DNA of 64,000 nucleotides from Stichopus chloronotus. Its lineage: Eukaryota > Echinodermata > Holothuroidea > Aspidochirotida > Stichopodidae. The notes beneath the pieces are model-generated. The model had not been told where the DNA came from. It saw only the letters and a list, made by a program, of their open reading frames with translations, and searched no databases. The first letter of the stretch is position 1, and each line of letters begins with the position of its first letter. A program made the position numbers and the translations under genes. The DNA lies in contig CM037840.1 of NCBI GenBank assembly GCA_021234535.1, forward strand, positions 1,673,801 through 1,737,800. The letters run 5' to 3'. Positions 992-58,363 of this stretch are shown in pieces.

Positions 992-1119
992 GTGCGTAGA
1001 AGTCGGTTGTGCATGCTGTGCAATAAGGAGCAGAGATATTTATCCATACACTTATGCAGAGTGCACAACATCCAGTGCAAGCAGGAGAGGATGAAACTGC
1101 TATACGAGGCAAGAGAGAG
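992..1119 (+). CDS. Exon 1 (first visible): zinc finger 1
   Basis: The acceptor follows a T-rich tract (ttctttctgttttggaag) and the donor is GTGAGT. The exon enters in phase 0 and leaves after two bases of a codon. It encodes a C2H2-like finger, CMLCNKEQRYLSIHLCRVH (C-x2-C-x9-H-x4-H), followed by a basic helix (KQERMKLLYEARER). The frame stays open upstream to an ATG at 887, but that stretch reads as a translated polypyrimidine tract (ILSLFFLFW), so an acceptor at 991 is the better choice. The true start is therefore further upstream. Confidence 0.75.
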
Positions 1120-4100
1120 GTGAGTTTGTGTAACCCGGTATACATCCACAGTATTTATAAGATGCAACTACTACCCTACAACTTGAGGTGTAAATTACCT
1201 ACTGAATCAAAATTCAGTGGAAAGCATCCTATGTAATTAACACCAAACAGTGAGAGCACCCGAAAAAAACTTAAAACACTACAGAACTAATATCAGAGAT
1301 TAGAGGTTTACTATTTGTTCAAAGTTAACACTCAGACCACTGAAAATACCTCAACTGTATGATCATGTATGTCACAGAACTTGCTCATAGTATGGTAGAA
1401 CATGTTCTACTGTAGGGTTGCCAGATAGCAAACCCTTTCATGTTTACCACGAAAATGAATATAATAATAATACAAGACTTATAATGACCTAAATCTAGCA
1501 ATGTGTTCATAGCACTTTACAAATCCAGTTCTTCATATATTCTAAGCAATAAATGAAGATAAATCAAGTGGAACAAATGATGAAGAGATATGTGAACCAA
1601 AAGTGCTAGTTTTCATAATGCATTTTTAAACTCTAAATGAAAGAGTCAATTGTCTATGATAAAGGTAAATTGGTCCTTAGTATTGGAGTAGCCAAAGCAT
1701 TTAGCAGTAATGTTTTCAGTAAATTTCACAAACCTTGTCTTACCAGATGGGAAATTCATTGAGTTAAGGTTTTTGTTTGTGATATACTTTATTTAGGTAT
1801 CCCTGGATGTGGACTATGTAATCAATGATAGTTTGCATAAATTTATAATCGCTAGAGATACATACCTGATATATGCGTGTTCTTGATCAATTTGGAATTC
1901 CATGTAAATAGATGCCGAGTTACCATCAACTCTAGATTTCAACTTCTATAGATCTCCAGTGACCAGAACGAGGTCAGTGACGATTCCCTATGGACAAAGA
2001 CGTCGGAACTGCCCGGTGGAGGGATGTCCCGCCAAGGCCATTACGCGGGTCGATTGCCATTTGGTGAAGGTACACCATATAAATGTGAGTTCCTGTCGAT
2101 GTAGATAATTCTTACACATGATCTCATGCAGTCAGAAGTCCTCATGGACAGTGACATATTGCTTCAGTGTGCATGGTCATTCACTCATAGTGCTTCTTTA
2201 TATTGCATTTAACTGCTTATAAGACACTAAATCTACTTCCTGCCATGGAGGGTGGAGCATTTTAAGCATTGTCATCCATTTTAAATATTGTCATCAGGTT
2301 TTAGCTAACCATTTAAAGGTAAAGTATTAATATATTATAAGATATACAGTTTCGTGTAGGTCTGTCAGGGACATTGGCCTGATGTAACCAGTGAGTTCAG
2401 TCATATATATTGTACATCAGTGCAGTCACTCATCACCCCAAGCTACATTTTTGGCCAGGGTAAACTTAATTCTCAGTTGGTTTCTACCTTCCCTTTGATC
2501 AACAGCAAATTCAGTTGCAGAGCACATTATATTACACAGCATGCACAGGTGCAGGATGTTTTGATTGCACATGTGGCCCTTGTATGCTCATCAGGACATG
2601 CAGAGTTTGAAGTAGAATTGTTTTTGCTCAAGGAAGCATTTTAGGCAGGCTCTGGGAAGAGTTAGAAGTAAGTAGTTGTGAAAATTGGAACTGTATCTCT
2701 AGGAAGAATGCAGTCACTTCAATTTGCGTTGGTATAGTCCTCTATCTTGATTCATAGATGGCTCTTTTGCATCAAGTGACATTATGTTTGTTACTGGATT
2801 GCTAAATGTAAGCAAGTTATTTGTTTCCTTTGAATACCCGATAGTTTGAAATATCCTCAAAGATTCCTCTAAGGTTCAAAAGGGGAGATTTGTAAGATTT
2901 AGCTGATGCTACAGAGTGAAGTTGGAAGTAGCTGCATCCCTTTAATATTCACATAGCATTTTCATTGCTAACCAAGAAACTTAAAGTACCAGTAGGCTTT
3001 GGCAGGTCACTCCACTCTGTTGCAACCCCTGCATGTCCAAGTGTGACAACTCAACCCCATTTTCCCTAGAGTCAAGACTCATGTGAAAGTTTTAACACTA
3101 TAAAAAGATTTTTTTTAGATTTGCAAAAGTCCAATCCTACCTCACCAGCAATGTTTGGGCACGTTTGAGCCCATCTGTGTCTGTCTGTCTGTCTGTCTTT
3201 ATCTTTGTGTTCAATCTACAATGTTGCATGGTTATGTAGCAGTTATGATGTAACTTGATCCTACTACAAACTCAGAGTCACAAGTTGCTTCATGGTCGCT
3301 ACTTTATTCAGGCAACAAGTAGTCAACTCTGAAAATTTTGGTGTCCCCCAAGCCTATTACATACTTCCTGCTGGGGGTTGGAACAATGGAATTACTTTCC
3401 AACTGGTTATATGGGTCACAATTTCAAGGTGAGTACATTCATGTGTATGTACAATATATAATCTGGTAATAGGCATCCTGTATGTTGGCCTTAAATGACT
3501 GAAAGTGCTTCCTCGTATAGAAGATTAATCGATCAATTGAAGCAGTCATGTGACGTTGAGTTCTAATGTTCTCATGTTTACAATGAACACATAAATCTAG
3601 CAATAGGTGATATACAGTGACCTGACGTGAAAAATAAGTTCAGGCACACAAAGAGTTTACTCCTCATAAATCATTGTAATCACTTACATGATGCTTACAT
3701 TATACCGTTTCCTTATCCAGAAAAATGACCCAAACTACAAGCTGCTACTTGACAAATGCAGGCAGTCTGGCAGAGAAGTTGAAGCCGCTTCGCGCCCTCC
3801 TGCCGCTGCTTTACTCCCTCCTGAGACACAACAATCTTCCAGTTCTGTCCAGGACTCCATCCTTGGTAATTGCAGTCATAATTTTAACATGTACATGATG
3901 CAAGAAACCTTTCTAACATGACCTATAATATCAATTGAACCTTTTTGTATGTCCATTTTGAGTCAGATGGTTTGGAACTCTCATTTTTTCAGCCAAGCTT
4001 GTAGATGCTGTTTGAGAGAACACCTTTTCAAAACACTGTTGATGTTCTTGAAAGTACTCTATATCTCCTTGAGATCCAGAATTGTACACCATGTGTGCCT

Positions 4101-7100
4101 GGAAAAAAATACCTTTTCAAAGTTGACACTAAAAGGATGGTAACTGCAGAGATGTTGTAATCTTCCATATGGTTCAGTTTAGCCAAATATTGATGATAGT
4201 TTCAACAGTGGTTGATGATAGCTTTAGGGGTGGTTGATAATAGCTTTACTAGTGGTTGATGATAGCTTTAGCGGTGTTTGATAATAACTTTAGTGGTGGT
4301 ATATGATAGCTTTAGCGGTGTTTGATAATAACTTTAGAGGTGGTTGATGATAGCTATAGTGGTGGTTGTATGCTGTTATGTCTGCTCTTGGAAGATTTTT
4401 TTTTCTATACTTAGCTGCCCGTAGTGTTTGCACAAGTTCCAAAATATGGACCCAGGTCCCCAAAACTCCTGGTTCCTCCTTTGTTATACTGCATGCAGGC
4501 TCACTTTGAAGTCAGGCTTGCTGTGAAGTAATATAGTTTGGTTTTGCATGTTAATGTAACGCTTCATGAGGGTATGATAAAGTTTTCATGCATGCTGAAT
4601 TTAGTCACATATAAAATTAGCATTTAATAGTAACACTTTGTATCTGAGTAGCCATTTCAGAACTGAGTCTTGTCAGTTTTTTGGTTGGTTACCAAGGTTA
4701 CCCCTTGATATCACTAACTATATGAGTGTTGTGGGTGGTATGTGCAGCCGACATTTCTGTCATTTTCATTTTTACAGGACAATTTCAGAACTATCTCTTT
4801 GTGAAAGGAGGCTGCACATTAGCTGCCAGAAAATCCGCAACGCAACACCAAAGACAAGTAGAAATTATGTTACAGAGGCATCACATTACCCTTAAGCAGT
4901 TTTGTACTCCATCAACACCACCAAGGTATCTACATATTTTATGAGCTATGAATATTTTCCACAAGTTGTTTGAGGGGTTACCTACCACTCCTTGAGAGTA
5001 AACTGTGACCTTCCAAAATAGCAAATAGGGTAAAGCTCAGTTTGGCCTCCCCCCCAAAAAAATTTACAATAGGCTACTACTATTTCAATTGTAGGCTTAA
5101 CGTAATGCATCTTTGAATGACCATAATGAGAGAGTAGCCTCCTTTAATTCAAATCCTTCACATTGAGATTATTTCACAGTAGCATAATACATCTCTTAGT
5201 GACATAAACCAGAGTTGAAAGGCTGATAACCTTAGACTAAATTATCATATCCAGTGAATGGCGGTTGAAATGCCAATCACATTAAGATGTTGGTCATACT
5301 GGAACAATAGCAGACTCAATTTTCATCCAACTTTTTCAAGTGCCATCCTAAAGTGATTGTATGCATACGAGGAAGAGTTCAAACATTTTGTGAAAATAAG
5401 TAGGTTGCAGGGTTTAGGTGGTAATTTCTGCCATATGATCTCAAATTCTTGTAACATGTTTCAAAAAGTCTAAAATATGATTATGTGAAGGTTGACAGTT
5501 TTCATTACGTTAACTGTGCGTTTCTTTTAACAAATCAATGGGATGTATACTAGCAATGAATATTCAGGTGGTCAAAACAGGTGGCCCTCTGATGTTCATG
5601 TAAGTGAGGTTATCTGGTAGTATTTCTTAAATACAGAGCCGTATTTCAATAAATATACAATTCCAGACAAAGATCAAGAAGCTATACCTTGAACAGTATG
5701 TTTGTGATCTACCAGTGAGCAGCTGATGTGACACATGCCCTCTCAGCATAGTAGCTACAAAAATAGTACATGCCTACAGGCCAGCTGAATTTACTAACCC
5801 TAACTCTGACGGTTATTTTGTCAGAGATACATTTCTCTATGTAGCGACAAAATGTAATTTTTGCCAGGGAGACATGTATTGTTGAATTTCATAACGTAGG
5901 CACTCTCTCTTTGAAATTTCAAGTACCTGCTTGCTTTCAAACATGAATTCTCTTTTTTTTTTACTGTTTTGTGCCATTCTGTTGCTTTTTAGTGTGGTAC
6001 TGTCATTTTCATTATTTGAATGACACACTTTTAGCGTGAACAACCCTGCATCTCCATTGAGAAGTAAAGAAAAAAATGACAGCTGTTATCAGACAAATGA
6101 AACATTCTGTAACAATTTTAAGATCAACCTCTTCATTGAGTTGTATAATATATTAGGTGAGTTTGTGACAATTTATAAGAAGACGACTGGTATAGAATCA
6201 GATATGGGTGCGCTCTGACCAACATAGATTGAAACAATGCCATTTGCATTATAATTTCAAAAAGTTGAATCAGATATATTATAATCTGATCTGCACCTAT
6301 AACAAATTGGATCAGATATATTGTAGTCTGATCTACACCTATAACAAATTGGATCAGATATATTGTAGTCTGATCTCCACCTATAACAAATTGGATCAGA
6401 TATATTGTAGTCTGATCTCCACCTATAACAAATTGGATCAGATATATTGTAGTCTGATCTGCAACTATAACACTACCAAAACCAAAGTAAATCACTGATC
6501 ATGTAAACCTAAATGGATTTGGAGGGACTTAACAACAGAAATGAGTTATTACTGATAGTATGTCAATGACCATTGCCAAAGATAGCAACTGCATGCTGTC
6601 AATGTTTCTTATAGGAAAAATATGGGATTTTTAATTTTTTTATGAGGGGGTACTTCGCTAAGAGTTGACTAGGTTCTGGATAAAATGTTCTTCATTTTCA
6701 GACTCATGGAATCTTTGCAGAAAGAAGGACTGCAACCAAAAACAACATCCAGTTACTTCCTCATTGTAAAGAAACTTTGCAGCTTCCTCTTGCTGTACGG
6801 GGAGATCGCACGTTCGATAGGAGTAACAGAGACCGATCTCTCCGATACGATGGGCAGCGTGGATGATCTAGCAACTGTTGTGCGGAAAGCCACCGTCAAA
6901 AGGGAGTCGGACCGTAAATCTCAAGTTAGTGGTATGTACAGTGAGTAAAAAGTAAAGCTTGTAGCAGTGACCCCTTCACCCCTTAATCATATCTATGGTA
7001 TACATTTATCAATTCCACAGATGGGTTTTACCCTTTAGAGGTTTGTTTGTAGTTCATTGATATTTACTTCATTACTTGAATTTAAAACAAAAAGGAAAAT

Positions 7101-10100
7101 AGGTCAAACACTGTAGTGGTGAAGAGTATTCTTAGGTGAGATGAACTCATGCAAAAAAAAAAACTACTTGCAATTATTAAGAATGCACATTTTATTGAAG
7201 AGTTGTGTGATAGGTGTTTTATTGCAGAATATTGACGGAAAAACAGCAAGAATCTAAAATAGTTATGCTGAACATATAACAATTATATATATTGGAAACT
7301 TAAAAGAAGATGGAAATAACCACTAAAAAAAGATAAAGTAGCAGTAAATAAAAGGAGAATCAATTCGTTTCTTTGAGTAGTTTTTGATTTTAGCAAGATG
7401 ATGAGTGTCACCAATAGCATGACAGTTGTGCCAGATAATGTCTGAAACTTAGGTCACCCACTTGCATTCATAATTATCAAATTAAAAGACTGGTACAGAA
7501 GTATAAAATACCTTAATCATTAAAGTAAATGATCACATACGTGTGTAAATCATCACAATTGTACTCTGGGTGATATAAGAGCTAAATGAAATGACTGTCT
7601 GTATTATTTTCACCAGATTGACGCTGTTCTTGGCAGTTATTGTGGGTATTCAGGAAACATGTATGGTCCAAAGGTCCTGACTTGCTAGTATGCCCTACCT
7701 AACCATGTATTTAATACATATGTACAACTAACAAACGAAATTGCATTTCCTTGTTGCTTTTGATTTGCAGATGTTCTCCTACCTCCAGAGGAGATCCAGA
7801 GGCTGAAGGTCAGTGCTGTGGCAGAACTGGAGGAGGTATTCGGTACGGACATTTTAATACATAAAAACATTAAGGGTAGCCTTAAAGGGGAGATCATTTC
7901 ACTCCAATTTGTGTTAGTATAGTCAACTATCTTAATTCATGGTGAATGCCTCTTTTACATCAAGTGACAATATTTTTTGTCATGGGATTGCTTAAGTTAT
8001 GCAAGTTATTTGTTTACTTCAAATACACAATAGTTTGAAATATCCTGAAAGATGCTTGTAAAGTATGAAATAGGAGTTTTGTACAATTTAGCTGATGCTT
8101 CCAAATAAAGTTGTTGTAACTGCTTATTAACTTTAATTGAAATAAGGCATTTGCTTTGTCACAGAAAAAAAAAAAAACTTTGTTGAGCATTCAATTATTG
8201 AGAATAAAGAATGACATTGGCCTCTGTTTCAAGAAATAAGTATCTCACAAATAGAAATTCACTTATATTTCTTGCCCTAGCATAAATTGATCATCCAAAT
8301 TTCAAAAATTCAAATTATGCATCATTCATAACTGATGGTGTTTATTGTGTTTTGAGAAGATGAAGCATTTGCAGGCGTTTATTGATGAGCTTGGATGGTT
8401 TAACAATAATAAAGCTTTGTATGGCAAAATTGTGAGTTAATTGTTAATGCCCTATTTCCCTGTAAAATCATACATACAACAAACTTTCTTGTGCATCGTC
8501 AACTAAAATCATGATCTTTTCATGTATTGAGATCATATTTAATGTGCTTCCATTCATTCCAAATAATTGACAACTATAACTGCACCAAAAGCAATGTTCA
8601 ATTTCTTCTTTTTTTTCTTGCTTGAAAGCACTGTGTTTCTGAAATCAGTAGAGTATGGTTGTAATCTGATAATTCCTGCATGTGATTTCATATCACAGTA
8701 CGCCAGACAGGTTAGGCCTGGTTAGATTTTACTAACAGTTTACTTTTGGGTTTCCATGAAATCGTAACCTTTGTAATCACACGGCGGTGGGTGTATGTGT
8801 GTTTTTGATGCCTACTTTGTAAACACGATATCTCAAGAAGGGAAGCTTGAACAGATCCCATATTTAGCACATAGGTGTACCACATTGAGTACAAGAATCC
8901 TATTGTTTTTGGTGGAGGTCAAAGGTCATTGGGGTCAACGGGTCAAATTGTGAAAACCTGGTAAACACAATATCTCAAGAAGGGAAGCTTGGACAAATCT
9001 CATTTGTGGTATGTAGGTGAAGAACATTGATTGAAATATCCCTATAGATTTTGGTGGAGGTCAAAGGTCATTTGTGGTCAATAGTTGTCAAATTGTGAAA
9101 AACGTATAAACATGTTATCTGAAGAAGGGAGCTTGAACAAATCTCTTATTGCTATCTAGGTGTTCCACATTAAGTGCAAGAACTCCATTGATTTTGTTGG
9201 AGGTCAAAGGTCATTTTAGGTCAAGAACGGTCAAATTGTGAAAACATTGTGAACAAGATATATGTTATATAAGAGGGGAAGCTTGGACAAACGTCCTATG
9301 TGTTATGTAAGTGCACCACATTGATTACAAGCTCACTTTTGACCTTGGTGGAGGTCAAAGGTCATTTGAGGTCAACAGGGGTCAAATTATGAAAATATTC
9401 TAAACAGATTATCTCAAGAAGGAAAACTTGGGCAGATCTCCCATTGAGAATGTAGTTGTATCTCATCGAGTATGCAAGAATTCCATTGTCTTTGGTGAAG
9501 GTCAAAGGTCATTTGGTGTCAACAGGGTCACATTATGAATTCTTGTAAAGGTCATATCTCAGGAAGGGATGCTTTGACAGATGTCATATTCAATCTGTAG
9601 TTGTATCTCATTGAGTACAAGAACCATTTGGTCTTTTCTGGAGGTCAAAGGTCATTTGATGTCAGCAAGGATCAAATTGTGAAAACCCTGTAGACATGAT
9701 CTCAAGAAATGAAACTTTTACAGATCTCATATTTCATATAAAACATAGGTAGCCCAATATAGCTTTAATGTCAGATTTAGAAAAACTGCTCATAATCCAA
9801 TCATTGAAACCACAATGCATTTGTGCATTCTGGTTGTATTTCCACAATCCTGCATTGAGGAGTGTGGTTTTTGCTTCAATTTACCTTAATTGATTCCTAT
9901 CAAACAATTCGGAATTTAAGGATAACTTGATCATTTTGTCTGCATGCACAGAAGGTAAAATGTAAGAAATTAAATCTGGCTCCTCTGTAATGTAATAATG
10001 GTTAAATTTACAAATAAGTCTCTTAGTTGGGATTTCAACTTTGGAGCAACTGCAAAGTACTGTACCTTGCCTTACAATTCAATGAGAAAATTCCTCTGCT

Positions 10101-13100
10101 TGTGTGAATATGGTAAAAAACTTGTAGTTTTTCAGTCACTACTTGTACTCAGGATTTTCTACTCTCATTACAAGTCTGCATGGTTTAACTCTCATTCAGA
10201 TGTGTAAAGAGAAATTTGTGATTGTATCACTGCTGCAATTTGCCTATTCATACAAAAGTATGGAATTGTAGAAAGTTATTCCATCAGGGAGAAGTTTCAT
10301 GGTGGCCAAATACAGTATGCAATTTGTCACAGCATAAACAACTACAACTGCACTGTAACTTGGCTTCTGCAGGCTAATATGAAGATATGGAACCATACTC
10401 TCAGACACTCTATTTACCTTTTACCTTGTTCCTTTCAGGTGCCCTTGAGAACTCCCCTACCTCAGTTGGATGGTGTAATGTGGTCAGACTGAGGAATATC
10501 CTCATCACATTCATCCTCCTCAGTTCTGGTCACCGATGCAGCGTCATAACTCAGCTGACTTTGGAGGAGTTCTTGAATACAAAGGAAGTGCAATGTGGGA
10601 CACTGGACACCTACTTCTTCATTAAAGTGAGTAGAAATTGTAGAAATTCATCTTCGTCCGTGAGAGGCAGATCAGTTCATGGAGTAATCCCTCCTCCCCT
10701 GCCCCTGTTTAATCCTCTGTGTGATGACATTAAAGGTTTGGGCCATTTCTGCAACTTCACCGCATATTTCATCCCCGCCCACTGATTAAAAGGATAGTCC
10801 AGGCAGAAATTTAGCTTTGATGTGTTTAAGAGTAAGTAAATGTGATCCTTATAGTAAAACTTCCATTCAGTTCCCATGCATGGTTCTCTCAATTTTATCA
10901 GTTTGAGATACCCCCTTTGCTACCAACTGGGAACTTGAAGCAAACAGGAGCGACATCATCTCTTCACATTGCTAAAGAGTCTTTTGTTTTCTTCATTTTT
11001 TAAATGTATTATTTTGACCATGGAATCAGCAGGTGGTCAGCCCACATACTGGTGACGTGAAGGTCACAAAACTCTCATACCCCTCCTACATTCACATTAT
11101 GATATCACTATATATTGAAAGATTAAATTTGGTATATAAACATAAAGAAAAACATAAAATACTTTATTGATATGGGGAGATGACATCACTCCTGCTTTCT
11201 TCAAGTTAACTATCAGTAACAAATGTGGCAACTTCAACTGCCCATATCTCGAGAACCACACATGAGAGTGGAATGGAAGTTTCACTGTAATGGTCAGATT
11301 AACTTGCACAATTAAGTTGTGTTCGTGGCTAGACCATCCTTTCAAATTGATTAACTTGTGTATCATTGTATTAACAGGTGTGTCCATACTGCCCAAAATA
11401 TTTTCTCTTGTTTGATCTTTCCTGTTGATCCATCTACACATACTGCACCATACTATGTATCAAAGATATTTTGACGGTCACTTGAGAAAGAATTCTAGCA
11501 CAGGACCGTAGTACGGATAATATTACTTAACTTGGACTGATATTAAGTCTGTCCTGCTACTAGCCAATAGGATGGTGTCAGGGATTTTTTTCAGCATCAA
11601 TGTCTATCACTGCAACTGTATAGTTGGTCAATGAATTTTATTACTTGTCACTTGTACTGCATTATTATGTTGGTATTCTTTCATAACCATTATGTCAGCA
11701 ATATGATTGTATAGCAAGTCATGAAATGTTCATAGGCCTTCTGCATTTAAGACACACATTTCTTCTGTAACAAACTTCAGAACATTAATTCTTATTAGCA
11801 GCTGTTACCCTGTTACATGACTGATGATGCATTGTCCCTGATCTGAATTGCCACTGGGTCCAAAATATTTTCTTATAAACTTGCTGTAGCAAAACAAACA
11901 AGTGGGTAATCCATGGAGTTGCAAATCTCATCCCTGTCTATCGGTGATCGGGCACTAAAGTACAATGCATATATGTCAAATGCGTATGGCACAAATACCT
12001 GCATGTGTGTACGCACAATCATATTAATGTACAAGAAATGAGAGGTAAAGAACCAAGATTTCTACTTTTTTTACTTTTCTCAGGTTCACAACCACTACAC
12101 AGCCAGCACCCATGGTCCTTTATCAGTTGTACTGACCCAACAACTGTTCTACTGGTGTAAGTCCTATATGGAGCTGGCTAGGAACCTTACTCCAGGTGCC
12201 TCTGCATCCACTCTTAATGACCTCACAGCACCATTCTTCTTGTCAAAAGGAGGTGGTTCTGTGGACCGTGTGGGTCAGGAGGTCAACAGACTGGGTGAAA
12301 GGTACAATGTCAAAAACCTCTCACCAGTTAACATCAGGAAAACCATTATCACCAGGGTATGTGGCATTAATTAATTTAATTTGATTCAGATAATGTACAC
12401 AGTAGTATTTACTTCTTTATTTAGCAATTTCATTTAATTAGCAGTCTCCAAAAATTTTAAATCAGATGAATTTTTTTATTCTTAGGGAGTAACTAATGAA
12501 ATTCAAGAAATCACAATATAATACCCGAAGATAGAGGATTCATACATAACTTGATTCCACAATCAAGGACTGGACATATACCCACTGGGGGGGTGACATG
12601 TTGAGGGAGGAGTGGTTGCTAATTCTGCTCATGCTGTTGCTAGATTCAAGACATTTGTTCGGAAGGAACCAAACTGGTGATACAGAAGGAGGGTCATATG
12701 AGGTAACACTCACAGAGAGTGGTGACATGGGTGAATCCTGGGGGGGGGGGACGGTGAGTTTTGAATCCCAGCTAACATTGTGGTAAGAATACCTTAGCGT
12801 AGCGCCACCATCGGTTGGTGCAGAACATGCAAGAAGGTACCATGTAGATCACCAGAAATTGCCTCTTTAGGGTCAGCTTTCTTCCATGGGTTGAGCAATT
12901 TAGTGTTTTTAATACTCGATTTTTCACCAATTATTGGCCTTCCTGGAGGGTGGGGTGTGTATGGTCCACAATGGCCCCATCTTGAATCCACCAGTAAAGA
13001 GGAGGTGTCTTCCCCTCGACTTTGATTTACCATAACTGAATTTGAGAGATGATAGAGTTAAAGTTGGTGTGACATGAAAATGACGTTTTGGAGTACTGAG

Positions 13101-55100: not shown

Positions 55101-58100
55101 CAGAAAAGGTTTACAAAAGACTATTTCATCCAGAAAGAAGACAAAATAAAATCGTTACTAAAAAAGTAAGAGTTTTTGATGCTATATTCAATTCAAACCT
55201 AGCATTAAATGTTGCACCATTTGCATCTTGCCAACTCTAAGTTAGCCTTTTTTATAAGGGAAGGGGGATACCTCTTCCTCTTTGATCCCTCCCCGGGACA
55301 GCGATCAGCCATCGTCCTGCTGCCCACCCATCCACCCCCCCATTCCTTCTGCCAAATCATCAATCAGAATAAAGTGGAATAGAAAAAGGTTATAAGAATG
55401 AAAATGAAAGAGAAAGCAAAGAGAATGCAAGTTTAAGTACTTCAGCACCCTATACATCCAGGAAATTATGCAGGTGATACCAATTTTATGCCTTCAAATT
55501 CAAGCAAGTACAGTGCTTGCCACGAAATGTGCAATTTTTTTATCGGAAAACTCCCAAATGAGTTGAACTTTTCATGGAAGAAAATATTAACAACACCATT
55601 TTCTGGGGCTTACTTGCTGAGCCTGGAGAGAGCTATTTCCAGCAATCTAGGGGCGAGGGTTTATGAATCTATTTTTCTGGTATGCTTCGCTCCATACGAT
55701 GCTAGTGCCCCTCTAAGATAATCTTCAAGCAATCTCACATCACCCCTAATAAAAAATTCAGAATGTGCCCAATGCAACAAGTGCATACTCTTCTTCCATA
55801 TCACACTGTATCACTGCCCAATGAAAAAAGTGTGGGACTACTTCATCCCAATCAAATATTTGTCAAGTGAGGATGCGTAATTTATGATTTCTTCGTCATC
55901 TCAACCAATCGGACTTGTATTAAAATTTTCATTGATTTGCTTTTGCTTTCATTAATTTGAGAACTTGCAAACATGAGACCCTGTTTCAAGACTGTGCATG
56001 TGCAGCTTAGAACACCCAGAAAGTGCTGTTTCTGCCCATCTAGAGAGTTTGAAAGCCATTTTTCTACGTTCCACGCCAACTGATGGTGGTGCACCGCTTT
56101 GATCGCCCTCATGGGTTCCTATATAGGGAGGGTTGTGACAACTGGTTGTTTGATGACATTTTACCTCAAAAATAGATGATCTTACTGATCCTTTTGTGAG
56201 ACATGATTACCATTTGCCCTTATACATCTTTTGTCTTTATTTAGATTTCAGAGCAAGTCATAGGTGGAGCCCCTCCAGCACCAAATTAATTTTGAAAAAA
56301 TTTAAGAGATACATCGAAACTGAAGGAACCGGAACAAAAGGGGCATTACCAGGTAACTTGAAAGAGCAACATTATCTATTGTAACCTTTCACTATGATGA
56401 AAAGCTTACAGTGTTTTTACCAAAATTGGACCTTGATTACTGTGCTGGGAAATGGAAGTGAGTAATTAATTTGATGATTCATAGTTTTACTATTACAAAC
56501 AGATGCTGAAAGCGGTATATTTCACCTATTGTTTGAGCCTTAAAACTGGCAGATAAAGTTGGGCAATCTCCCATCTGATCTGTTCCTTTTCCACTAGTGC
56601 TAGTGTTGTGTTGATGAGCTACATTTTGCTGTTGGTTCGGACGTTGTTTTTTGGTTTTTTTTAGTTCAATCAGCCAGGAAGTTGACCTGTAGTTATATTG
56701 CAATTAAGTCCAACATCAAAGGAAAACACTTTCTTCTACTGTTAAAAGAAAAAAAAAAAACGTACTTAGATACTTCTCTAACTCCCAAAACAGTTGATCA
56801 AAATGACATAAGTTGTTGACCATGAGCCATCATCTCCAAAAGTGAAGGGACGTGAATTTTCAGAATTTACACGTTGCAGTCCTGATGGGGGGTCTGTTAG
56901 ATCGAATGACTGCTCCTTTAAAAAAAAAAAGGAAACTGGAAGATGTCTCTTTGGCAAATGGTGCAATGTTTAGCCATAATTTACCTTTTAAAATGTAGCA
57001 TCACTTTTACAGTCTACTGTTTACAATTATTATGTAACAAGTTGGAATCTTCTTATCCTCATTTCCCAATCCAAAATCATTCCACTGGTTCATCCTCAGT
57101 GGGTATAATTCTGAAAACGTACGCTCATTGGAAAATTCCATGAAAAAATTACCTCATTTAGACCGCATATGTCCAACCTATACCTTTTGCATACGTGCAT
57201 AGATACTTCTCTATAAACTAAACAATTTTAAGCACTATGATCAAAATGGCAAATGTTAAGACGTTGGCCAATGACAATATTAATTGGTGAGATCATAGAA
57301 CTACATTAGCTTGCCTCTATTCTACTAGTATGTAATAAATTAAATGTGAAGTTGCTCAGTATATATTCATACAAGAGCATTTTCGGGTACGAAACACTTC
57401 AGGTACAGGTGATGACATACGACTACATTCTTTGACAAAAATGATGGGACTCTTGTACTCAAATGTGACACTATTGAAGTAGATTCGTTCATCTTTCACA
57501 ATCCCTCCCCCCAGATCAATTTTGTTCCAACCAAAATATATCCCAAATTTCAACTTTGAATGGGGAGTGGGAGAAGGTGTACCCATGTATTTTTGTCAAG
57601 GATTGTAGCCTTACGCTTCTATGTCGAAATGAACAGAGAGGCTTCGGCTGAACCTGTGCATGTCATCAGTTACAACGAAAGCTATAGCAACAAATGTCAA
57701 CAAAGAATATATGATACGGTCACTGCGCTGCCACAGCCTTGAATTATACACCAGTAAAATTGACGATGTGGAGGTTTGAAATCAAGAAAATTCTCAAAAT
57801 GCTCAAAATTCTGTATTTTAATCAGTCATCGCAGTTTTAGGTTTCATCATTTTGAAAAAGCTGAGGGACATTTGGGATACTTCCCCCTCTTACACAAAAG
57901 TGTGATATAGAACCGTACCAGAATGAGCCCTACCGTAGTGGTATATTTACCCACATCTTCACACTTAAGAAACTTGCATACATTATCTTTACAGTCACAC
58001 ATTCTAGATTTTTAAAGATCTAGGCTTATTTCATGTAAGTTCAAGGATTTGTATTTTTTTTTATAGGGAAAGAAGAGATACTGGCGTTTCTAGACGAGGA

Positions 58101-58215
58101 GAAAACCTTACTGCCAGACACGGTGCCGCAAGAAAAGAAGATTTTGCTCACTAAAATGAAAGTTTTCAATGAGAGAAAATCACTCCGCCTCAGACTTGAA
58201 ACGTTTCAAGTTTAA
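992..58215 (+). CDS. 21-exon tyrosine-recombinase-like host gene, 5' partial (overview)
   Basis: This entry spans the whole gene; the exons are listed separately. All 21 exons have AG acceptors and GT donors. Their lengths total 2445 nt (814 codons plus TAA), with phases running 2,0,1,2,1,1,0, then 0 for exons 8-13, then 1 for exons 14-20. Domain order is two C2H2-like fingers, a linker, a helical arm-like segment, a recombinase fold (exons 7-9), a low-complexity tail and a basic C-terminus. The fold aligns without gaps around the first Arg with the nested copy at 32.6-34.2 kb (both begin LRN). It keeps Arg I (GHRCSV), the Lys (end of exon 7), Arg II (NIRK) and a His (MAH). Asn replaces the catalytic Tyr, and the Glu after Arg I is Val. 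Known for the family: such recombinases are encoded by Crypton, DIRS and Ngaro elements, and some became host genes. Inferred: a nuclear DNA-binding protein without recombinase activity. The exact element class is not settled. No initiator Met is visible. Confidence 0.82.
1952..2084 (+). CDS. Exon 2: zinc finger 2
   Basis: Acceptor aacttctatag, donor GTGAGT. The split Arg codon from exon 1 joins in frame, and the exon ends in phase 0. After an Arg-rich run (GQRRRN) comes CPVEGCPAKAITRVDCHLVKVH, read here as C-x4-C-x10-H-x4-H. An alternative donor (aag|gtacac, 2069) would cut the finger before its last His, so the downstream donor is preferred. High GC and the absence of stops support real coding. 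Confidence 0.8.
2660..2955. repeat. Dispersed repeat B, copy 1
   Basis: Shares a long, ordered set of blocks with 7.88-8.15 kb ('catcaagtgaca', 'gcaagttatttgttt', 'atagtttgaaatatcct', 'tttagctgatgct'). It lies in the intron between exons 2 and 3, next to otherwise featureless DNA. Confidence 0.75.
3180..3199. repeat. Short GTCT microsatellite
   Basis: Five GTCT units in the intron between exons 2 and 3. Confidence 0.8.
3721..3865 (+). CDS. Exon 3: linker, Ala/Pro/Ser-rich
   Basis: Acceptor ttccttatccag, donor GTAATT; phase 0 in, phase 1 out. It begins KNDPNYKLLLDKCRQSGREVEA, continuing the helix after finger 2, then turns Ala/Pro/Ser/Gln-rich (AAALLPPETQQSSSSVQDS). It is probably a flexible linker between the fingers and the recombinase-like region. 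No domain is recognised. Confidence 0.78.
4190..4370. repeat. Degenerate ~21-bp tandem repeat
   Basis: About eight imperfect units of the type gtggttgatgatagctttag, alternating with 'gtgtttgataataacttta'. It lies in the intron between exons 3 and 4. Confidence 0.85.
4778..4925 (+). CDS. Exon 4: linker before arm-like domain
   Basis: Acceptor cattttcatttttacag, donor GTATCT. The split Gly codon from exon 3 is completed, and the exon ends two bases into an Arg codon that exon 5 completes. It reads GQFQNYLFVKGGCTLAARKS and later CTPSTPPR. It is mostly polar, with several His and Gln residues; no domain is recognised. The exact phase fit on both sides is the main support. Confidence 0.75.
6264..6476. 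repeat. 42-bp tandem repeat, five copies
   Basis: The unit is 42 bp and contains the imperfect palindrome GATCAGA...TCTGATC. Because 42 is divisible by three, frames on both strands stay open across the array (120 and 96 codons), but the translations are pure repeat and not genes. Confidence 0.92.
6702..6931 (+). CDS. Exon 5: helical arm-like region
   Basis: Acceptor ttcttcattttcag, donor GTATGT; phase 2 in, phase 1 out. It encodes RLMESLQKEGLQPKTTSSYF, then a Leu-rich helix (IVKKLCSFLLLYGEI) and an acidic/polar helix. In tyrosine recombinases of mobile elements an N-terminal core-binding or arm region of short helices, with a 'parameters for crossing' type Lys/Thr/Tyr motif, precedes the catalytic fold; this exon resembles that in position and composition. 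The assignment is inference. Confidence 0.82.
7771..7842 (+). CDS. Exon 6: short connecting helix
   Basis: Acceptor ttgcttttgatttgcag, donor at ttcg|GTACGG. It encodes DVLLPPEEIQRLKVSAVAEL and ends in EEVF. A nearer donor (gag|gtattc, 7836) would leave phase 0 and not fit exon 7, which needs one carried base. The longer exon is chosen because it keeps the frame. Confidence 0.75.
7880..8155. repeat. Dispersed repeat B, copy 2
   Basis: Same orientation as the copy at 2.7 kb, starting just after exon 6. Identity is high but gapped, suggesting an old family. Confidence 0.75.
8800..9740 (+). repeat. Tandem array of six ~145-bp units, each with a DR1 motif
   Basis: AGGTCAAAGGTCA occurs exactly at 8916, 9058, 9201, 9352, 9499 and 9642, spaced 142, 143, 151, 147 and 143 bases. 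Each unit also carries 'atctcaagaaggga' and 'tcaaattgtgaaaa'. The 13-mer is the consensus DR1 half-site pair bound by RXR, PPAR, HNF4 and COUP-TF type nuclear receptors. The array lies in the intron between exons 6 and 7. Dispersed copies, mostly reversed, occur elsewhere in the window. Confidence 0.92.
10439..10626 (+). CDS. Exon 7: recombinase fold, Arg I and Lys
   Basis: Acceptor ttaccttgttcctttcag, donor GTGAGT; phase 1 in, phase 0 out. It holds LRNILITFILLSSGHRCSVI, which lines up without gaps with LRNLVVSRLTLYNAWRGGEP of the nested recombinase. The catalytic Arg I is kept (GHR), while the following conserved Glu is Val. The exon ends in FFIK, whose Lys sits where the beta-hairpin Lys (TTK) falls in the nested copy. 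The stretch after the donor runs on open, but is not needed. Confidence 0.85.
10800..11340. mobile_element. TTAA-flanked fold-back MITE, copy 1 (541 bp)
   Basis: It starts AAGGATAGTCCA after TTAA (10796-10799) and ends AGACCATCCT before TTCA, a one-base variant of TTAA. The two halves are partly complementary: aaaacttccattc near the left pairs with gaatggaagttt near the right, and gttctc with gagaac. The second copy at 38.3 kb shares length and sequence. Confidence 0.8.
12084..12356 (+). CDS. Exon 8: recombinase fold, beta-hairpin to Arg II
   Basis: This is the longest exon of the host gene (91 codons, phase 0 to 0). Acceptor tttttacttttctcag, donor GTATGT. It starts VHNHYTASTHGPLSVVLTQQ, matching the strand-Lys-strand element with a GP turn seen in mobile-element recombinases. 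A helix with WCKSYMELARN follows, then APFFLSKGGG and a final helix NLSPVNIRKTIITR. The Arg of NIRK fits the second catalytic Arg (HxxR box, His not conserved). Confidence 0.87.
12357..14411. other. Intron 8-9, nothing recognised
   Basis: AT-rich intronic DNA with a G-run (12740s) and a few worn DR1-like pieces near 14255 ('tgaccccaagtgacccc'). No coding or structured feature is supported. Confidence 0.5.
14412..14561 (+). CDS. Exon 9: recombinase fold end, Tyr lost
   Basis: Acceptor ttttgttcatttcag, donor GTGAGA; 50 codons, phase 0 to 0. It reads KIAEYMAHREDSQAHRNK. In the nested copy the same place reads EHMGHPEGINKHVYQ, with the nucleophilic Tyr nine residues after the His. Here the His is kept (MAH), but Arg-Asn-Lys stand where the Tyr should be and no Tyr occurs later in the exon. 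The protein is thus unlikely to cleave DNA. The exon closes with a helix (VACEATRLISGLLDG). Confidence 0.84.
15111..15197 (+). CDS. Exon 10: Ser/Thr-rich tail
   Basis: Acceptor catttatcatgccttcag, donor GTATTT; 29 codons, phase 0 to 0. It is almost entirely Ser, Thr and Pro (VPSSSSGTSLSSTEPLSSDQ). This looks like a disordered tail and a candidate for phosphorylation. It is identified mainly by splice sites and phase. Confidence 0.62.
16350..16932. repeat. 13-bp minisatellite mixed with GT-rich units
   Basis: Units of GTCAGTATGCTGT (13 bp) alternate with 'cagtgtgtgt' variants for nearly 600 bp. None of the units contains a stop in any plus-strand frame, so all three frames stay open for about 200 codons with Cys/Val/Ser repeats. 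This is a repeat, not a gene. Confidence 0.93.
17536..17598 (+). CDS. Exon 11: Ser/Thr-rich tail
   Basis: Acceptor tgttttcccttaataaag, donor GTAAGT; 21 codons, phase 0 to 0. It reads CIPPSLSSSPSTTTLQTEAA, the same composition as exon 10. The donor is perfect. The acceptor tract is interrupted by 'ataaag', so the left edge is less sure than the right. Confidence 0.6.
17821..17897. repeat. Nested palindromes
   Basis: Two inverted repeats sit side by side: gcgcgtgtatacg with cgtatacgcgc (17834-17865) and a perfect 22-bp palindrome centred at 17883/17884 with arms GTTTACCTCAA/TTGAGGTAAAC. The outer pieces tgggttta and taaaccca also pair. GC is higher than in the flanks. Confidence 0.75.
17900..19650. 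other. Intron DNA, nothing recognised
   Basis: AT-rich with short local repeats (atatatcgggaatatatatc at 18053) and no exon with consistent phase. Worn DR1-repeat sequence begins after about 19.6 kb. Confidence 0.5.
19660..20200 (-). repeat. Dispersed DR1-type repeat
   Basis: Reversed copies of the ~145-bp unit: 'gatgacctttgacccccat' near 19993, 'acctttgacctcatcaaaaac' near 20143, and related 'ctgcagacacagtttgtctacattttgcctg' type stretches. Confidence 0.7.
20728..20870. repeat. Dispersed repeat C, copy 1
   Basis: Begins 'tatcaatataggccttgaat' and shares about 140 bp with 22.17 kb, including 'gcgattgcacaccac' and 'gagaatgggtactttggtaa'. Confidence 0.8.
21555..21632 (+). CDS. Exon 12: tail
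   Basis: Acceptor tgtttcttatatcattacag, donor GTAACA; 26 codons, phase 0 to 0. It reads NTLGANMQPLLPMDVLSNST, then FAGLLK. This is a mildly hydrophobic patch within the otherwise polar tail, possibly a short docking motif (inference). No family is recognised. Confidence 0.62.
22042..22089 (+). CDS. Exon 13: charged micro-exon
   Basis: Acceptor cattatcttacag, donor GTTAGT; 16 codons, phase 0 to 0: VAEIEKDKPKEDDDKE. Together with exon 12 it reads as a short helix passing into an acidic run. The donor is weaker than in most exons of this gene. Confidence 0.6.
22169..22335. repeat. Dispersed repeat C, copy 2
   Basis: Begins 'tatcaatataggccttgcat'; same orientation as copy 1, just after exon 13. 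Confidence 0.8.
22340..22870 (-). repeat. Dispersed DR1-type repeat
   Basis: Contains TGACCTTTGACC at 22596 and the exact TGACCTTTGACCT at 22744, with 'catagtttgtacacattctgcctg' like blocks shared with 19.7-20.0 kb. It ends in a CA-rich stretch at 22.87 kb. Confidence 0.7.
23288..23318 (+). repeat. Terminal hairpin of the DR1 repeat family
   Basis: GGTTCCTTTGC pairs with GCAAGGAACC with one bulged base, followed by 'aaaaat'. The same stem-loop plus A-run closes the copies at 29.3 and 44.1 kb. Confidence 0.6.
23613..23664 (+). CDS. Exon 14: tail, shifts phase 0 to 1
   Basis: Acceptor ttccttgatccttgcag, donor GTATGT. It reads LSCMPDRDAETQPQDKD plus one base. It is the only tail exon that changes phase, and the six exons after it all begin and end in phase 1. 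The polar, acidic composition fits its neighbours. Confidence 0.62.
24381..24576. mobile_element. MITE family A, copy 1
   Basis: About 195 bp starting CTACAATCTTGGACAAAAT and containing 'cttgggacacc', 'gttcaatgttggctgtag' and 'ttatcctctcacctaaaatt'. The right end is worn (caacaattttgttttttag). The same sequence occurs at 26.3 kb and, reversed, at 27.2 kb. Confidence 0.75.
25818..25880 (+). CDS. Exon 15: acidic tail
   Basis: Acceptor gatcacttttacag, donor GTAAGC; phase 1 to 1. It reads DPLQSVYDDENSMELGSSPK. It is acidic and Ser-rich. The downstream intron is the longest in the gene (13.2 kb) and contains the nested recombinase copy. Confidence 0.62.
26067..26252. repeat. 66-bp tandem repeat, 2.8 copies
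   Basis: Units begin CACCTCATTGTCC at 26067, 26133 and 26199 and are nearly identical, which suggests recent duplication. Unit length is divisible by three, giving repeated open frames without meaning. Confidence 0.93.
26333..26523. mobile_element. MITE family A, copy 2
   Basis: This copy matches copy 1 in the same orientation. Its left terminus is worn (tttggacaaaatacc) and its right terminus intact (attttgtccaagactgtag). It lies in the long intron after exon 15. Confidence 0.78.
27241..27444. mobile_element. MITE family A, copy 3 (reversed, best preserved)
   Basis: The termini are CTACAATCTTGAACAAAAT and ATTTTGTCCAAGATTGTAG, 18 of 19 bases complementary. Interior matches copies 1 and 2 in reverse. 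TA next to CAATC at each end would fit a Tc1/mariner-type TA target, which is inference. Confidence 0.8.
28525..28860. repeat. Dispersed repeat D, copy 1
   Basis: Shares an ordered series of blocks with 45.74-46.07 kb: 'gtagtgggt', 'tatcacatgca', 'acaacatggca', 'cattaaaacttcat' and 'tttccttg'. About 335 bp, non-coding. Confidence 0.75.
28930..29345 (-). repeat. Dispersed DR1-type repeat with terminal hairpin
   Basis: The exact TGACCTTTGACCT lies at 28974. The repeat runs through a CA-rich stretch (29263-29285) to a perfect 10-bp stem, ATTCCTTGCC (29314-29323) with GGCAAGGAAT (29331-29340), followed by an A-run. Confidence 0.75.
29346..31329. other. Intron DNA, nothing recognised
   Basis: Contains loose repeated phrases such as 'gaaccattaactgagcatcat' and 'tgtacaagagaat' (30.2, 30.9 and 31.2 kb), which suggest an old dispersed family. 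No gene is seen. Confidence 0.45.
31330..31707. mobile_element. hAT-type MITE, 378 bp
   Basis: Perfect 15-bp terminal inverted repeats: CAGGGTTGTCACCAG at the left and CTGGTGACAACCCTG at the right. The flanks TCCATCAA (31322-31329) and TCCATCAC (31708-31715) are an 8-bp target duplication with one change. The internal arms also pair (gagagctggg on the left and its partner on the right). Non-coding; the open frames crossing it are not genes. Confidence 0.88.
32561..34216 (+). pseudogene. Nested tyrosine-recombinase copy with two in-frame TAG codons
   Basis: A single 552-codon frame runs from an AG acceptor (tcttttgttttcaacag) to a GT donor (gacaaag|gtaggt), phase 1 on both sides. It is broken only by TAG at 33850-33852 and 33973-33975, with no frameshift. 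It encodes two zinc fingers: CPFCSKLIAGSQLTRHLKAMH, and CSICKGAYSKRNFPRHKKSC with a C2HC end. A helical region follows, then the recombinase fold: NAWRGGEPCRL (Arg I with its Glu), TTK (Lys), TRHRTST (Arg II), HMGH (His) and KHVYQ (Tyr nucleophile). The full catalytic set is thus visible, although the first TAG falls before the second half of the fold. It matches the domain order of exons 1-9 of the surrounding gene but has no introns. It could be a decayed mobile element, a retrocopy-like duplicate, or an exon captured by the host gene. The open frame extends upstream to an ATG at 32305, but that part is AT-rich and looks intronic. Confidence 0.85.
34408..34465. repeat. CGGTACC-type repeat end (hAT-like terminus)
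   Basis: Begins AGGGTTGGGCGGTACCAG, the kind of end seen in hAT MITEs. A complementary end lies at 37490-37506, so this may be the left end of a 3.1-kb element. No matching 8-bp duplication was found, so it may equally be a solitary fragment. Confidence 0.4.
34466..37354. other. Intron DNA between the two CGGTACC ends
   Basis: No transposase-like frame found. A short inverted piece, acccacgaagtgtgggt, occurs near 35430. If the flanking ends belong together, this would be the non-coding interior of one element. Confidence 0.4.
37355..37508. repeat. CGGTACC-type repeat end
   Basis: Rich in ggtacc and accggt motifs and ending 'ggaatactgcccaactc', the reverse of the 34.4 kb end with changes. 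Confidence 0.45.
38277..38815. mobile_element. TTAA-flanked fold-back MITE, copy 2 (539 bp)
   Basis: It starts AAGGATGGTCCA after TTAA (38273-38276) and ends TGGACTATCCT before TTAA (38816-38819). It shares long stretches with the copy at 10.8 kb, for example 'accccctttgc', 'catctcttcacatt' and 'tgacatcactcctgct'. The TTAA target suggests a piggyBac-like mobiliser (inference). Confidence 0.85.
39066..39119 (+). CDS. Exon 16: Ser/Lys-rich tail
   Basis: Acceptor ttactttatgtactgtag, donor GTAAGT; phase 1 to 1. It reads CKSSSSNKSDGKADRSAL. The T-rich tract upstream is strong. It lies between a TTAA-flanked MITE (ends 38815) and a hAT element (starts 39544) and belongs to neither. Confidence 0.62.
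   Translation, partial: ANHPHRTKVMAKLIGVL
39544..40669. mobile_element. hAT-type non-autonomous element, 1126 bp, with 8-bp TSD
   Basis: The element begins CAGGGTTGGAAATT and ends AATTTCAAACCCTG, imperfect terminal inverted repeats with one mismatch. It is flanked on both sides by a perfect 8-bp direct repeat, ATTGCACC (39536-39543 and 40670-40677). An 8-bp target duplication and CAGGG termini are hallmarks of the hAT superfamily. Subterminal inverted pieces (tccgcc near the left end, tggcggacca at 39650) are present. No transposase reading frame is found, so it must have been moved by an enzyme from elsewhere. Confidence 0.9.
41080..41430 (-). repeat. Dispersed DR1-type repeat
   Basis: The exact TGACCTTTGACCT lies at 41280, followed by 'ccaccaaaaacaataagg'. 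The same block occurs in reverse complement in the 8.8-9.7 kb array. Confidence 0.75.
41826..41994. mobile_element. CGGTACCG-rich MITE, ~170 bp
   Basis: Starts 'tagggtttggcggtatcc' and ends 'gataccggtaccgcctccaa'; the ends are partly complementary and the interior has repeated taccggta palindromes. Related to the 34.4 and 37.4 kb pieces. Confidence 0.6.
42780..42848. repeat. GT/GC-rich microsatellite
   Basis: Irregular gtgtgtgcgt-type tract following 'cgtgtccgtgcc'. The open frames on the minus strand across it (His/Thr repeats) are artefacts. Confidence 0.85.
43850..44110 (-). repeat. Dispersed DR1-type repeat, CA tract and terminal hairpin
   Basis: The exact TGACCTTTGACCT lies at 43914. 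It is followed by 'aatagggcacaccttctcaa', a CA microsatellite (44023-44060) and the stem GGTTCCTCTTGC / GCAAGGAACC (44077-44102), then 'aaaaat'. Confidence 0.75.
44840..45290 (-). repeat. Dispersed DR1-type repeat, at least two units
   Basis: Exact TGACCTTTGACCT at 44892 and 45033, with a degenerate third unit (atgacctttaacc) near 45178; spacing is about 141-146 bases, as in the 8.8 kb array. It ends in 'acacacacacacatgca'. Confidence 0.75.
45378..45405. repeat. ATATG microsatellite
   Basis: A short run of 'atatgatatgatatgatgtgat'-like units just before a stretch ending near exon 17. Confidence 0.7.
45661..45708 (+). CDS. Exon 17: acidic micro-exon
   Basis: Acceptor tttatctcatatacag, donor GTAAGT; phase 1 to 1. 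It reads NQECGEAEESDSETVA. It is strongly acidic with Ser-Asp and Ser-Glu pairs like casein-kinase-2 sites (inference). It begins immediately after repeat DNA and is followed at 45.74 kb by another repeat. Confidence 0.62.
45740..46075. repeat. Dispersed repeat D, copy 2
   Basis: Same orientation as the 28.5 kb copy. It starts about 30 bases after exon 17. Confidence 0.75.
46100..47855. other. Intron 17-18: worn repeats only
   Basis: Weak DR1-family pieces at 46.74-47.1 kb ('cctttgaccccc', 'aatagggga') and a CA-rich stretch at 47.16-47.20 kb. No gene is seen. Confidence 0.5.
47856..47957 (+). CDS. Exon 18: acidic-to-basic tail, NLS-like
   Basis: Acceptor tttctctcgatttcaacag, donor GTAAGT; phase 1 to 1. 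It opens DDSECNEEEDIYVPYVKVPR and ends with a Lys/Arg/Ser repeat (KSSKKSRRKSSRKS) built on a short DNA repeat, aagtcaag. The basic run is a plausible nuclear localisation signal, consistent with a DNA-binding role. Confidence 0.72.
48326..48397. repeat. (TCAG)n microsatellite, about 18 units
   Basis: An uninterrupted TCAG run. It translates as a Ser-Val-Ser-Gln repeat and lies in the intron between exons 18 and 19. Confidence 0.95.
49330..49905 (-). mobile_element. Non-LTR retrotransposon remnant, AP-endonuclease part
   Basis: The minus-strand reading gives KPDIFGVTESWLEM (the PDI..xTETWL box with the catalytic Glu), GFGGRVLLDVRDNM (the GGGVLLYVRD box) and VTIGRPTVYHSPNSGKENDK (the xxYRPPNS box). 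These are in the correct order for an APE-type endonuclease of CR1/L2-like elements. Frames shift between blocks and stops occur, so this is a fossil. The GDFN block is no longer clear. Confidence 0.68.
50105..50290. repeat. Duplicate of the 49.25-49.43 kb segment
   Basis: The stretch starting near 50110 (ctgctatggaaacatgaaga) repeats the stretch starting near 49250 with scattered differences, including 'atgggatcctgtcat' against 'atgggaccctgtcat' and 'aacaaaccac'. This suggests two overlapping copies of the same retroelement fossil or a local duplication. Confidence 0.6.
50290..50710 (-). mobile_element. Non-LTR retrotransposon remnant, possible ORF1 esterase-like part
   Basis: On the minus strand, upstream of the endonuclease block, AKIQDVIERVNKIVSDEEVC and VVDSGGYNNVEESIDKVQ are readable. 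CR1/L2-type ORF1 proteins often carry an SGNH-esterase domain with a block of this shape (helix, VVxxGxNxV). The order ORF1 then endonuclease on the same strand supports one element. The match is short and inferred from memory. Confidence 0.4.
51060..51185 (+). CDS. Exon 19: Trp/Gly/Cys-rich module
   Basis: Acceptor ttttccatgcgtgtttcag, donor GTGTGT; phase 1 to 1, 41 full codons plus the split ones. It reads PPLHWRCQTGIQWGNPPDFS, then WGGKGLCEWCRDRVDDNTTF. Three Trp residues, a CxxC pair and an earlier Cys suggest a small metal-binding or binding module that differs from the rest of the tail. GC content is clearly above its flanks. No family is recognised. Confidence 0.68.
   Translation, partial: VPRYTGVARLGSSGVIRQTFHGVAKGSANGAGIEWTIILLS
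51186..54039. other. Intron 19-20, first part: nothing recognised
   Basis: Apart from the 18-bp tandem repeat at 52.6 kb, this stretch shows no coding frame with splice support and no repeat I could pair. Confidence 0.45.
52580..52648. repeat. 18-bp tandem repeat, about 3.5 copies
   Basis: Perfect copies of GTTATGGAAGCTATTAAA, hence recently expanded. Confidence 0.93.
54040..54290. repeat. Fold-back repeat with GTGTCGGAACATAGGG units
   Basis: 'ccctatgttctgacacac' near 54052 is inverted relative to 'gtgtcggaacataggg', which occurs twice around 54226-54260. MITE-like; ends not defined. Confidence 0.5.
54530..56112. repeat. Broken repeat unit in three pieces, zinc-finger-like in part
   Basis: A block near 54565-54650 ('gggaagtgccgtgtcctgcc' to 'ccacgccaagtaatggtggtgc') recurs near 56010-56095 ('acgccaactgatggtggtgc'). 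A second block near 54825-54950 ('aattacccagaaaaggttta') recurs near 55093-55235. The 56.0 kb piece reads RKCCFCPSREFESHFSTFH, resembling a short C2H2 finger, then a stop. It may be a decayed exon of a duplicated gene or element. Confidence 0.45.
56245..56352 (+). CDS. Exon 20: Trp/Lys-rich C-terminal segment
   Basis: Acceptor tcttttgtctttatttag, donor GTAACT; phase 1 to 1. It reads HRWSPSSTKLILKKFKRYIE, then TEGTGTKGALP. From memory, genes with this recombinase type in cnidarians and fishes often end with a similar segment: a Trp, a Lys-rich helix ending in a hydrophobic/Tyr patch, then a Gly-Lys loop. Here it continues into exon 21. Confidence 0.78.
57423..57608. mobile_element. MITE related to family A by its termini
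   Basis: The ends are CTACATTCTTTGACAAAAAT and ATTTTTGTCAAGGATTGTAG, which resemble family A termini. The interior is different apart from 'gggac'. It lies in the intron between exons 20 and 21. Confidence 0.65.
58067..58215 (+). CDS. Exon 21 (terminal): C-terminal helices and stop
   Basis: The acceptor is an excellent T-run (tattttttttttatag); phase 1 in. It reads GKEEILAFLDEEKTLLPDTV, then KKILLTKMKVFNERKSLRLR and ends FQV with TAA at 58213-58215. Two amphipathic helices are likely. No AATAAA lies in the next 150 bases; ATTAAA at 58358-58363 is a possible poly(A) signal. Confidence 0.82.
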
Positions 58216-58357: not shown

Positions 58358-58363
58358 ATTAAA
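58358..58363 (+). promoter_or_regulatory. Possible poly(A) signal of the recombinase-like gene
   Basis: ATTAAA, a common variant of AATAAA, lies 143 bases after the stop codon. A T/G-rich stretch is not obvious right after it, so this is only a candidate. Confidence 0.25.

Follow-up and report, generated by a model that had tools for sequence, protein, structure and literature searches.

A supposed 57-kb gene of Stichopus chloronotus is most likely two neighboring animal genes, both of DNA-cutting recombinase descent

Introduction

Recombinase folds that bind nucleic acid without cutting it have precedents in two described systems, the DUF3504 genes (KCTD1, KIAA1958, ZMYM2-4, QRICH1, and WOC) and the repressor MrpR (PMC3212892, PMC10516654). 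In the account given in PMC3212892, the DUF3504 genes have lost the second arginine and the histidine (the histidine in all but KCTD1), and its authors propose that they bind DNA or protein; animal Cryptons are described there as being without a C-terminal domain. MrpR (YopR), the repressor of the prophage SPbeta, is presented in PMC10516654 as a protein with a recombinase fold and no recombinase activity.

The stretch of DNA analyzed here (64,000 nucleotides from the sea cucumber Stichopus chloronotus; hereafter, the window) had been described in a first-pass annotation as carrying one 57-kb gene derived from a tyrosine recombinase. We report that this supposed gene is most likely two neighboring animal genes, both of DNA-cutting recombinase descent, here called gene A and gene B. 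Neither was recognized as described in the literature searched, at the level of titles and the beginnings of abstracts, which is no proof of absence.

Results

One Gene or Two

Table 1. Exons proposed for gene A and gene B, with the basis for each.
Feature	Position	Strand	Basis
Gene A exon, first zinc-finger-like motif (C-x2-C, H-x4-H)	992..1119	+	AG/GT borders; 61% identical to P0001; finger named by eye
Gene A exon, second zinc-finger-like motif	1952..2084	+	AG/GT borders; 52% identical to P0001; alignment spans 1119/1952 junction
Gene A exon, linker, weak donor	3721..3865	+	AG/GT borders, exon ranking; absent from P0001
Gene A exon, helical region ahead of catalytic core	6702..6931	+	AG/GT borders; first part 63% identical to P0001
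Gene A exon, start of core	7771..7842	+	AG/GT borders, exon ranking; absent from P0001
Gene A exon, Arg I (SGHR), Val at Arg I+3	10439..10626	+	Motifs, AG/GT borders; 53% identical to P0001
Gene A exon, HNHYT (Lys position) and Arg II (SPVNIR)	12084..12356	+	54% identical to P0001 over compared part
Gene A exon, last His (YMAH) and Asn at His+9 (nucleophile position)	14412..14561	+	AG/GT borders; rank 3 among plus-strand candidates; outside P0001
Gene A exon, Ser-rich tail	15111..15197	+	Frame and splice borders only
Candidate terminal exon of gene A with stop at 22102-22104 (22042-22089 if internal)	22042..22104	+	Top terminal exon score in 14.5-32.4 kb; ab initio only
Candidate initial coding exon of gene B (ATG)	23622..23664	+	Top initial exon score in 15.2-32.4 kb; ab initio only
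Possible gene B exon, acidic N-terminus	25818..25880	+	Ab initio, phase only; relatives give no significant match
Core exon of gene B, encoding fingers and a tyrosine-recombinase core that keeps its Tyr; two in-frame TAG codons (33850, 33973); phase 1/1	32561..34216	+	
Gene B tail exon	39066..39119	+	Join with 34216 yields FDKGK as in P0003; phase
Gene B tail exon, acidic	45661..45708	+	Exon ranking, alignment with P0003, phase
Gene B tail exon, acidic then basic	47856..47957	+	Exon ranking, alignment with P0003, phase
Gene B exon, first half of C-terminal domain	56245..56352	+	Match to family C-terminus
Final exon of gene B with the second half of the C-terminal domain and the TAA stop; ATTAAA at 58358	58067..58215	+	Match to family C-terminus

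The exons in Table 1 probably belong to two adjacent genes on the same strand: gene A, with a recombinase-like, putatively DNA-binding product that lacks its nucleophile, and gene B, a stop-bearing member of an animal recombinase family. Gene A would extend on the plus strand from upstream of 992 to 15197 or 22104 and gene B, likewise on the plus strand, from 23622 to 58215, each presumably transcribed separately; the exon at 22042 is given to the end of gene A, and those from 23622 onward to the start of gene B, only tentatively. The first-pass model would correspond to gene A joined to the outer exons of gene B with the core exon passed over, probably because of its in-frame stops.

Gene B aligns end to end with its relative P0003, the 34216/39066 junction included, and its exons show a phase bias that we count in favor of gene B. 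Its last two exons match the C-terminus of family members (BLAST against all 44 relatives, with E-values for that set), so that the end of the gene at 58215 was placed correctly. A single 57-kb gene was rejected on the C-terminal exon matches, the P0003 alignment, and the phase bias: exons 39066-58215 are consistent with a second gene, and the protein joined earlier lacks the central exon of that gene. The Apostichopus japonicus relatives of the two genes lie on contigs that differ in size, which we also count for two genes.

We consider it quite unlikely that there is one gene after all, with the gene A exons spliced to 39066-58215 and 32561-34216 either skipped or a mobile copy within an intron. 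Such a gene would have every exon on one strand with compatible phases (15111-15197 ends in phase 0, where 22042 begins), and skipping the phase 1/1 core would preserve the frame. However, the last two exons match the C-terminal end of proteins from the family to which the core exon belongs (41% to P0003, with 53% identity between the core of P0003 and 32561-34216); the 34216/39066 junction reproduces that of P0003; and the core of gene A can barely be aligned to this family.

Exons of Gene A

All nine plus-strand exons between 992 and 15197 have AG/GT borders, as had been claimed. The further claim of one frame kept through 21 exons (2445 nt) stood in part: the last six of the nine are open in one frame over five introns, while our rebuild, which did not draw on the earlier exon list, reached 18 exons (2156 nt) with a gap in the frame between 3865 and 6702. 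The frame fails to close from 3721-3865 to 6702-6931, so there must be either a missing exon or a misplaced border; the numbering of the first-pass annotation implies one exon placed there, and our search for a further in-frame exon between 3865 and 6702 gave none that was convincing.

In an unguided exon ranking that used generic weights for splice sites and an approximate table of codon usage, seven of the nine positions (6702, 14412, 12084, 1952, 3721, 10439, and 7771) came within the top nine candidates on the plus strand, with two donors a few bases off (6940 for 6931, and 7835 for 7842). Exon 1952-2084 scored best in a frame other than the one supported by P0001. The two outermost exons were recovered only in shortened form: 992-1119 as an overlapping segment in a different frame (rank 11), and 15111-15197 as a segment with a low score.

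The protein joined from these exons was searched against 5.8 billion proteins; 8000 candidates were scored and one was kept at E up to 10, the hypothetical protein BSL78_18944 of A. japonicus (P0001; E 1e-69, 38% identity, 86% of the query). When the search was repeated with a focus on the core, this protein was again the only one kept, of 170 candidates; such searches find only relatives that share exact words, and others may exist. The direct alignment, at 49% identity (61, 52, 63, 53, and 54% piece by piece), spans the junctions 1119/1952 and 10626/12084. The second part of exon 6702-6931 reaches 28% and is poorly conserved or misaligned, and the annotation of P0001 does not include exons 3721-3865 and 7771-7842. 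Judging by this alignment, gene A is real.

Active Site and Fold of Gene A

Arg I, Arg II, and the last His lie at the usual recombinase spacing, as read by eye (P0001 covers only Arg I), and the motifs SGHR, SPVNIR, and YMAH bear out the earlier statement that these residues are kept. The reported loss of the nucleophile likewise held, with Asn at His+9 in a region outside P0001, as did the Val in place of Glu at Arg I+3, which P0001 shares. The lysine, in contrast, had been said to remain: its hairpin position is Tyr (HNHYT) in the window and Lys (HNHKT) in P0001. With Tyr replaced by Asn and Lys by Tyr, gene A, as read from its sequence, does not look like an active recombinase. The annotation of P0001 ends ahead of Arg II and so reaches neither that arginine nor the final His and the site of the nucleophile; as P0001 also keeps the Lys, the comparison does not show the loss of chemistry to be old.

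It is highly improbable that gene A still encodes an active recombinase, the Asn being an assembly error, a recent mutation, or a product of the wrong exon. P0001 does retain the Lys and does not reach the nucleophile region, but the Asn-bearing exon is the third best candidate on its strand and has its His and Asn spaced as usual; moreover, both species have Val in place of the Glu, and the Lys is lost in the window. It had also been envisaged that a Tyr might come from a missed exon. Exon 32561-34216 is indeed a second recombinase core with its Tyr, but it is a separate domain and cannot supply the Tyr of gene A.

Profile searches of gene A returned nothing credible from Pfam, the zinc-finger-like motifs included, and no match to Phage_integrase (PF00589) up to E 10 (Pfam-A); there was likewise no DUF3504 match up to E 10 (Pfam-A), in keeping with the earlier view that gene A is unlike the DUF3504 genes. 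PHROGs gave no match, and no recombinase was among the matches listed in a PDB sequence search. A HMMER profile of the gene B family core did not raise gene A above shuffles (among 1000 shuffles and the two real sequences, P0001 came third and the core of gene A ninth). Profile alignment of gene A to this family scored above 150 of 150 shuffles, yet with an hhalign probability of 5% (17% in another run). The predicted structure of P0001, a poor model, matched Cre and XerH best in the PDB, with Z under 8. The proposed descent from a tyrosine recombinase is therefore upheld in part, by motif spacing and by conservation in one second species, with weak fold evidence from a poor model; gene A looks like a member of the recombinase superfamily on its motif spacing and that weak model, and appears at most distantly related to the gene B family.

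What Gene A Might Do

Gene A most likely encodes a DNA-binding, probably regulatory protein that does not cut. Its product would carry a pair of zinc-finger-like motifs and, beyond a helical region, a tyrosine-recombinase-like domain in which the nucleophile, the active-site Lys, and the Glu are replaced; fingers and recombinase fold together would grip DNA, and with nucleophile and Lys gone it should not cut. A regulatory role is our inference. Gene A also looks like a domesticated recombinase, although domestication is inferred from its sequence and the evidence, one relative in one species, is thin.

It might instead be a decaying copy of a mobile recombinase without host function, which we regard as unlikely. 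The Lys is gone in the window and retained in P0001, the adjoining core of gene B is itself decaying, and just one relative was found. Against this, gene A has many introns, and its nine exons keep an open frame between intact splice borders; its 52-63% identity to a second species in the compared pieces would hardly be kept by a neutral remnant and may reflect selection on gene A.

Gene B and Its Family

Gene B, by its sequence, is a member of a widespread, unnamed family of animal tyrosine recombinases, with 44 relatives found (P0003-P0046; for example, BSL78_00778). Its members have a finger start, a recombinase core with the recombinase fold and, in some, a C-terminal W...PGK...NER domain. 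Catalytic motifs are retained in other members, so the family looks able to recombine. PF00589 was matched by 5 of the 10 members scanned at E 0.1 or better (best 8.6e-6), all under the curated cut-off; DUF3504 gave no match in the 10 scanned of the 44, nor in the window copy. Our alignments held 35 of the 44 relatives with the window copy, or 34 of the 44, those dropped being mostly short. The C-terminal profile made without the window drew on 7 of the 44, chosen by eye for having the tail; one containing the window was circular and was discarded as evidence.

The closest relatives found for both genes are in sea cucumbers; searches of viral contigs for relatives of the two genes gave 37 and 22 pattern matches, none confirmed. 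P0020 (Saccostrea echinata), a relative of gene B, has an N-terminal match to PF04843, a herpesvirus tegument domain, over residues 19-160 (E 2.7e-6), before its recombinase part begins; this is perhaps a module gained by fusion or from a virus.

The core exon of gene B carries two nonsense codons in this assembly, and Asn replaces Lys (GNG; GKG in P0003). The mid-tail exons and those at 22-26 kb gave nothing significant in BLAST against the 44 relatives. The core exon (1656 nt, phase 1/1) is frame-neutral: its removal leaves a single open frame across the exons on either side, and a recombinase-free product, despite the stops, is conceivable. A high-scoring candidate at 51060-51185 in the phase of gene B is not needed by the best relative and is either an alternative exon or chance.

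Other Features of the Window

An intron of gene A (8820-9740) holds a diverged tandem array with a period of about 145, rich in AGGTCA-like motifs. At 16347-16931, a 13-base unit (GTGTCAGTATGCT) is repeated in about 46 copies with all three plus-strand frames open. Nearly perfect tandem arrays occur at 6265-6472 (42-base units), 26065-26255 (66-base), and 48326-48396 (4-base). On the minus strand, an open reading frame at 24572-24844 resembles, by eye, the end of a retroelement reverse transcriptase, with no Pfam match at E 0.1. Six side open reading frames gave one Pfam match, at E 0.076 and under its cut-off, and an Rfam scan at gathering thresholds gave none.

Discussion

The locus shows how tandem genes of similar origin, one of them with a stop-bearing core exon, can fuse into a plausible but wrong model. 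If gene A is a host gene, a tyrosine recombinase has been reused outside the DUF3504 set with both arginines retained, and a comparison of sea cucumbers could reveal in what order active-site residues are lost. It is possible, though doubtful, that two steps of taming lie side by side here, gene A as a two-finger DNA-binding gene from a recombinase lineage other than Crypton/DUF3504, with its nucleophile gone and both arginines present, and gene B as a decaying, frame-neutral exon between open flanks; if so, skipping of the decaying recombinase exon of gene B would give a recombinase-free protein with the C-terminal domain.

The nearest relative, BSL78_18944, shares with gene A the two finger motifs, the core up to a point before Arg II, Arg I, and the Val at Arg I+3; it differs in having the Lys and in an annotation that omits two of the window exons and ends ahead of Arg II. 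From the family of P0003-P0046, the window copy differs in the two stops of its core exon and in its Asn for the Lys. Gene B differs from the animal Cryptons, as PMC3212892 describes them, in having a C-terminal domain and no DUF3504 match.

MrpR, as portrayed in PMC10516654, resembles gene A in using a recombinase fold for DNA binding without recombination, a use that in gene A is predicted; unlike gene A, it is a phage protein that has the Lys and the Tyr and has lost other residues, and that portrayal mentions no finger motifs. The DUF3504 genes are, in the account of PMC3212892, recombinase-derived host genes without the catalytic Tyr, as gene A would be; gene A differs from them in keeping the second Arg and the His and in having no match to the DUF3504 profile.
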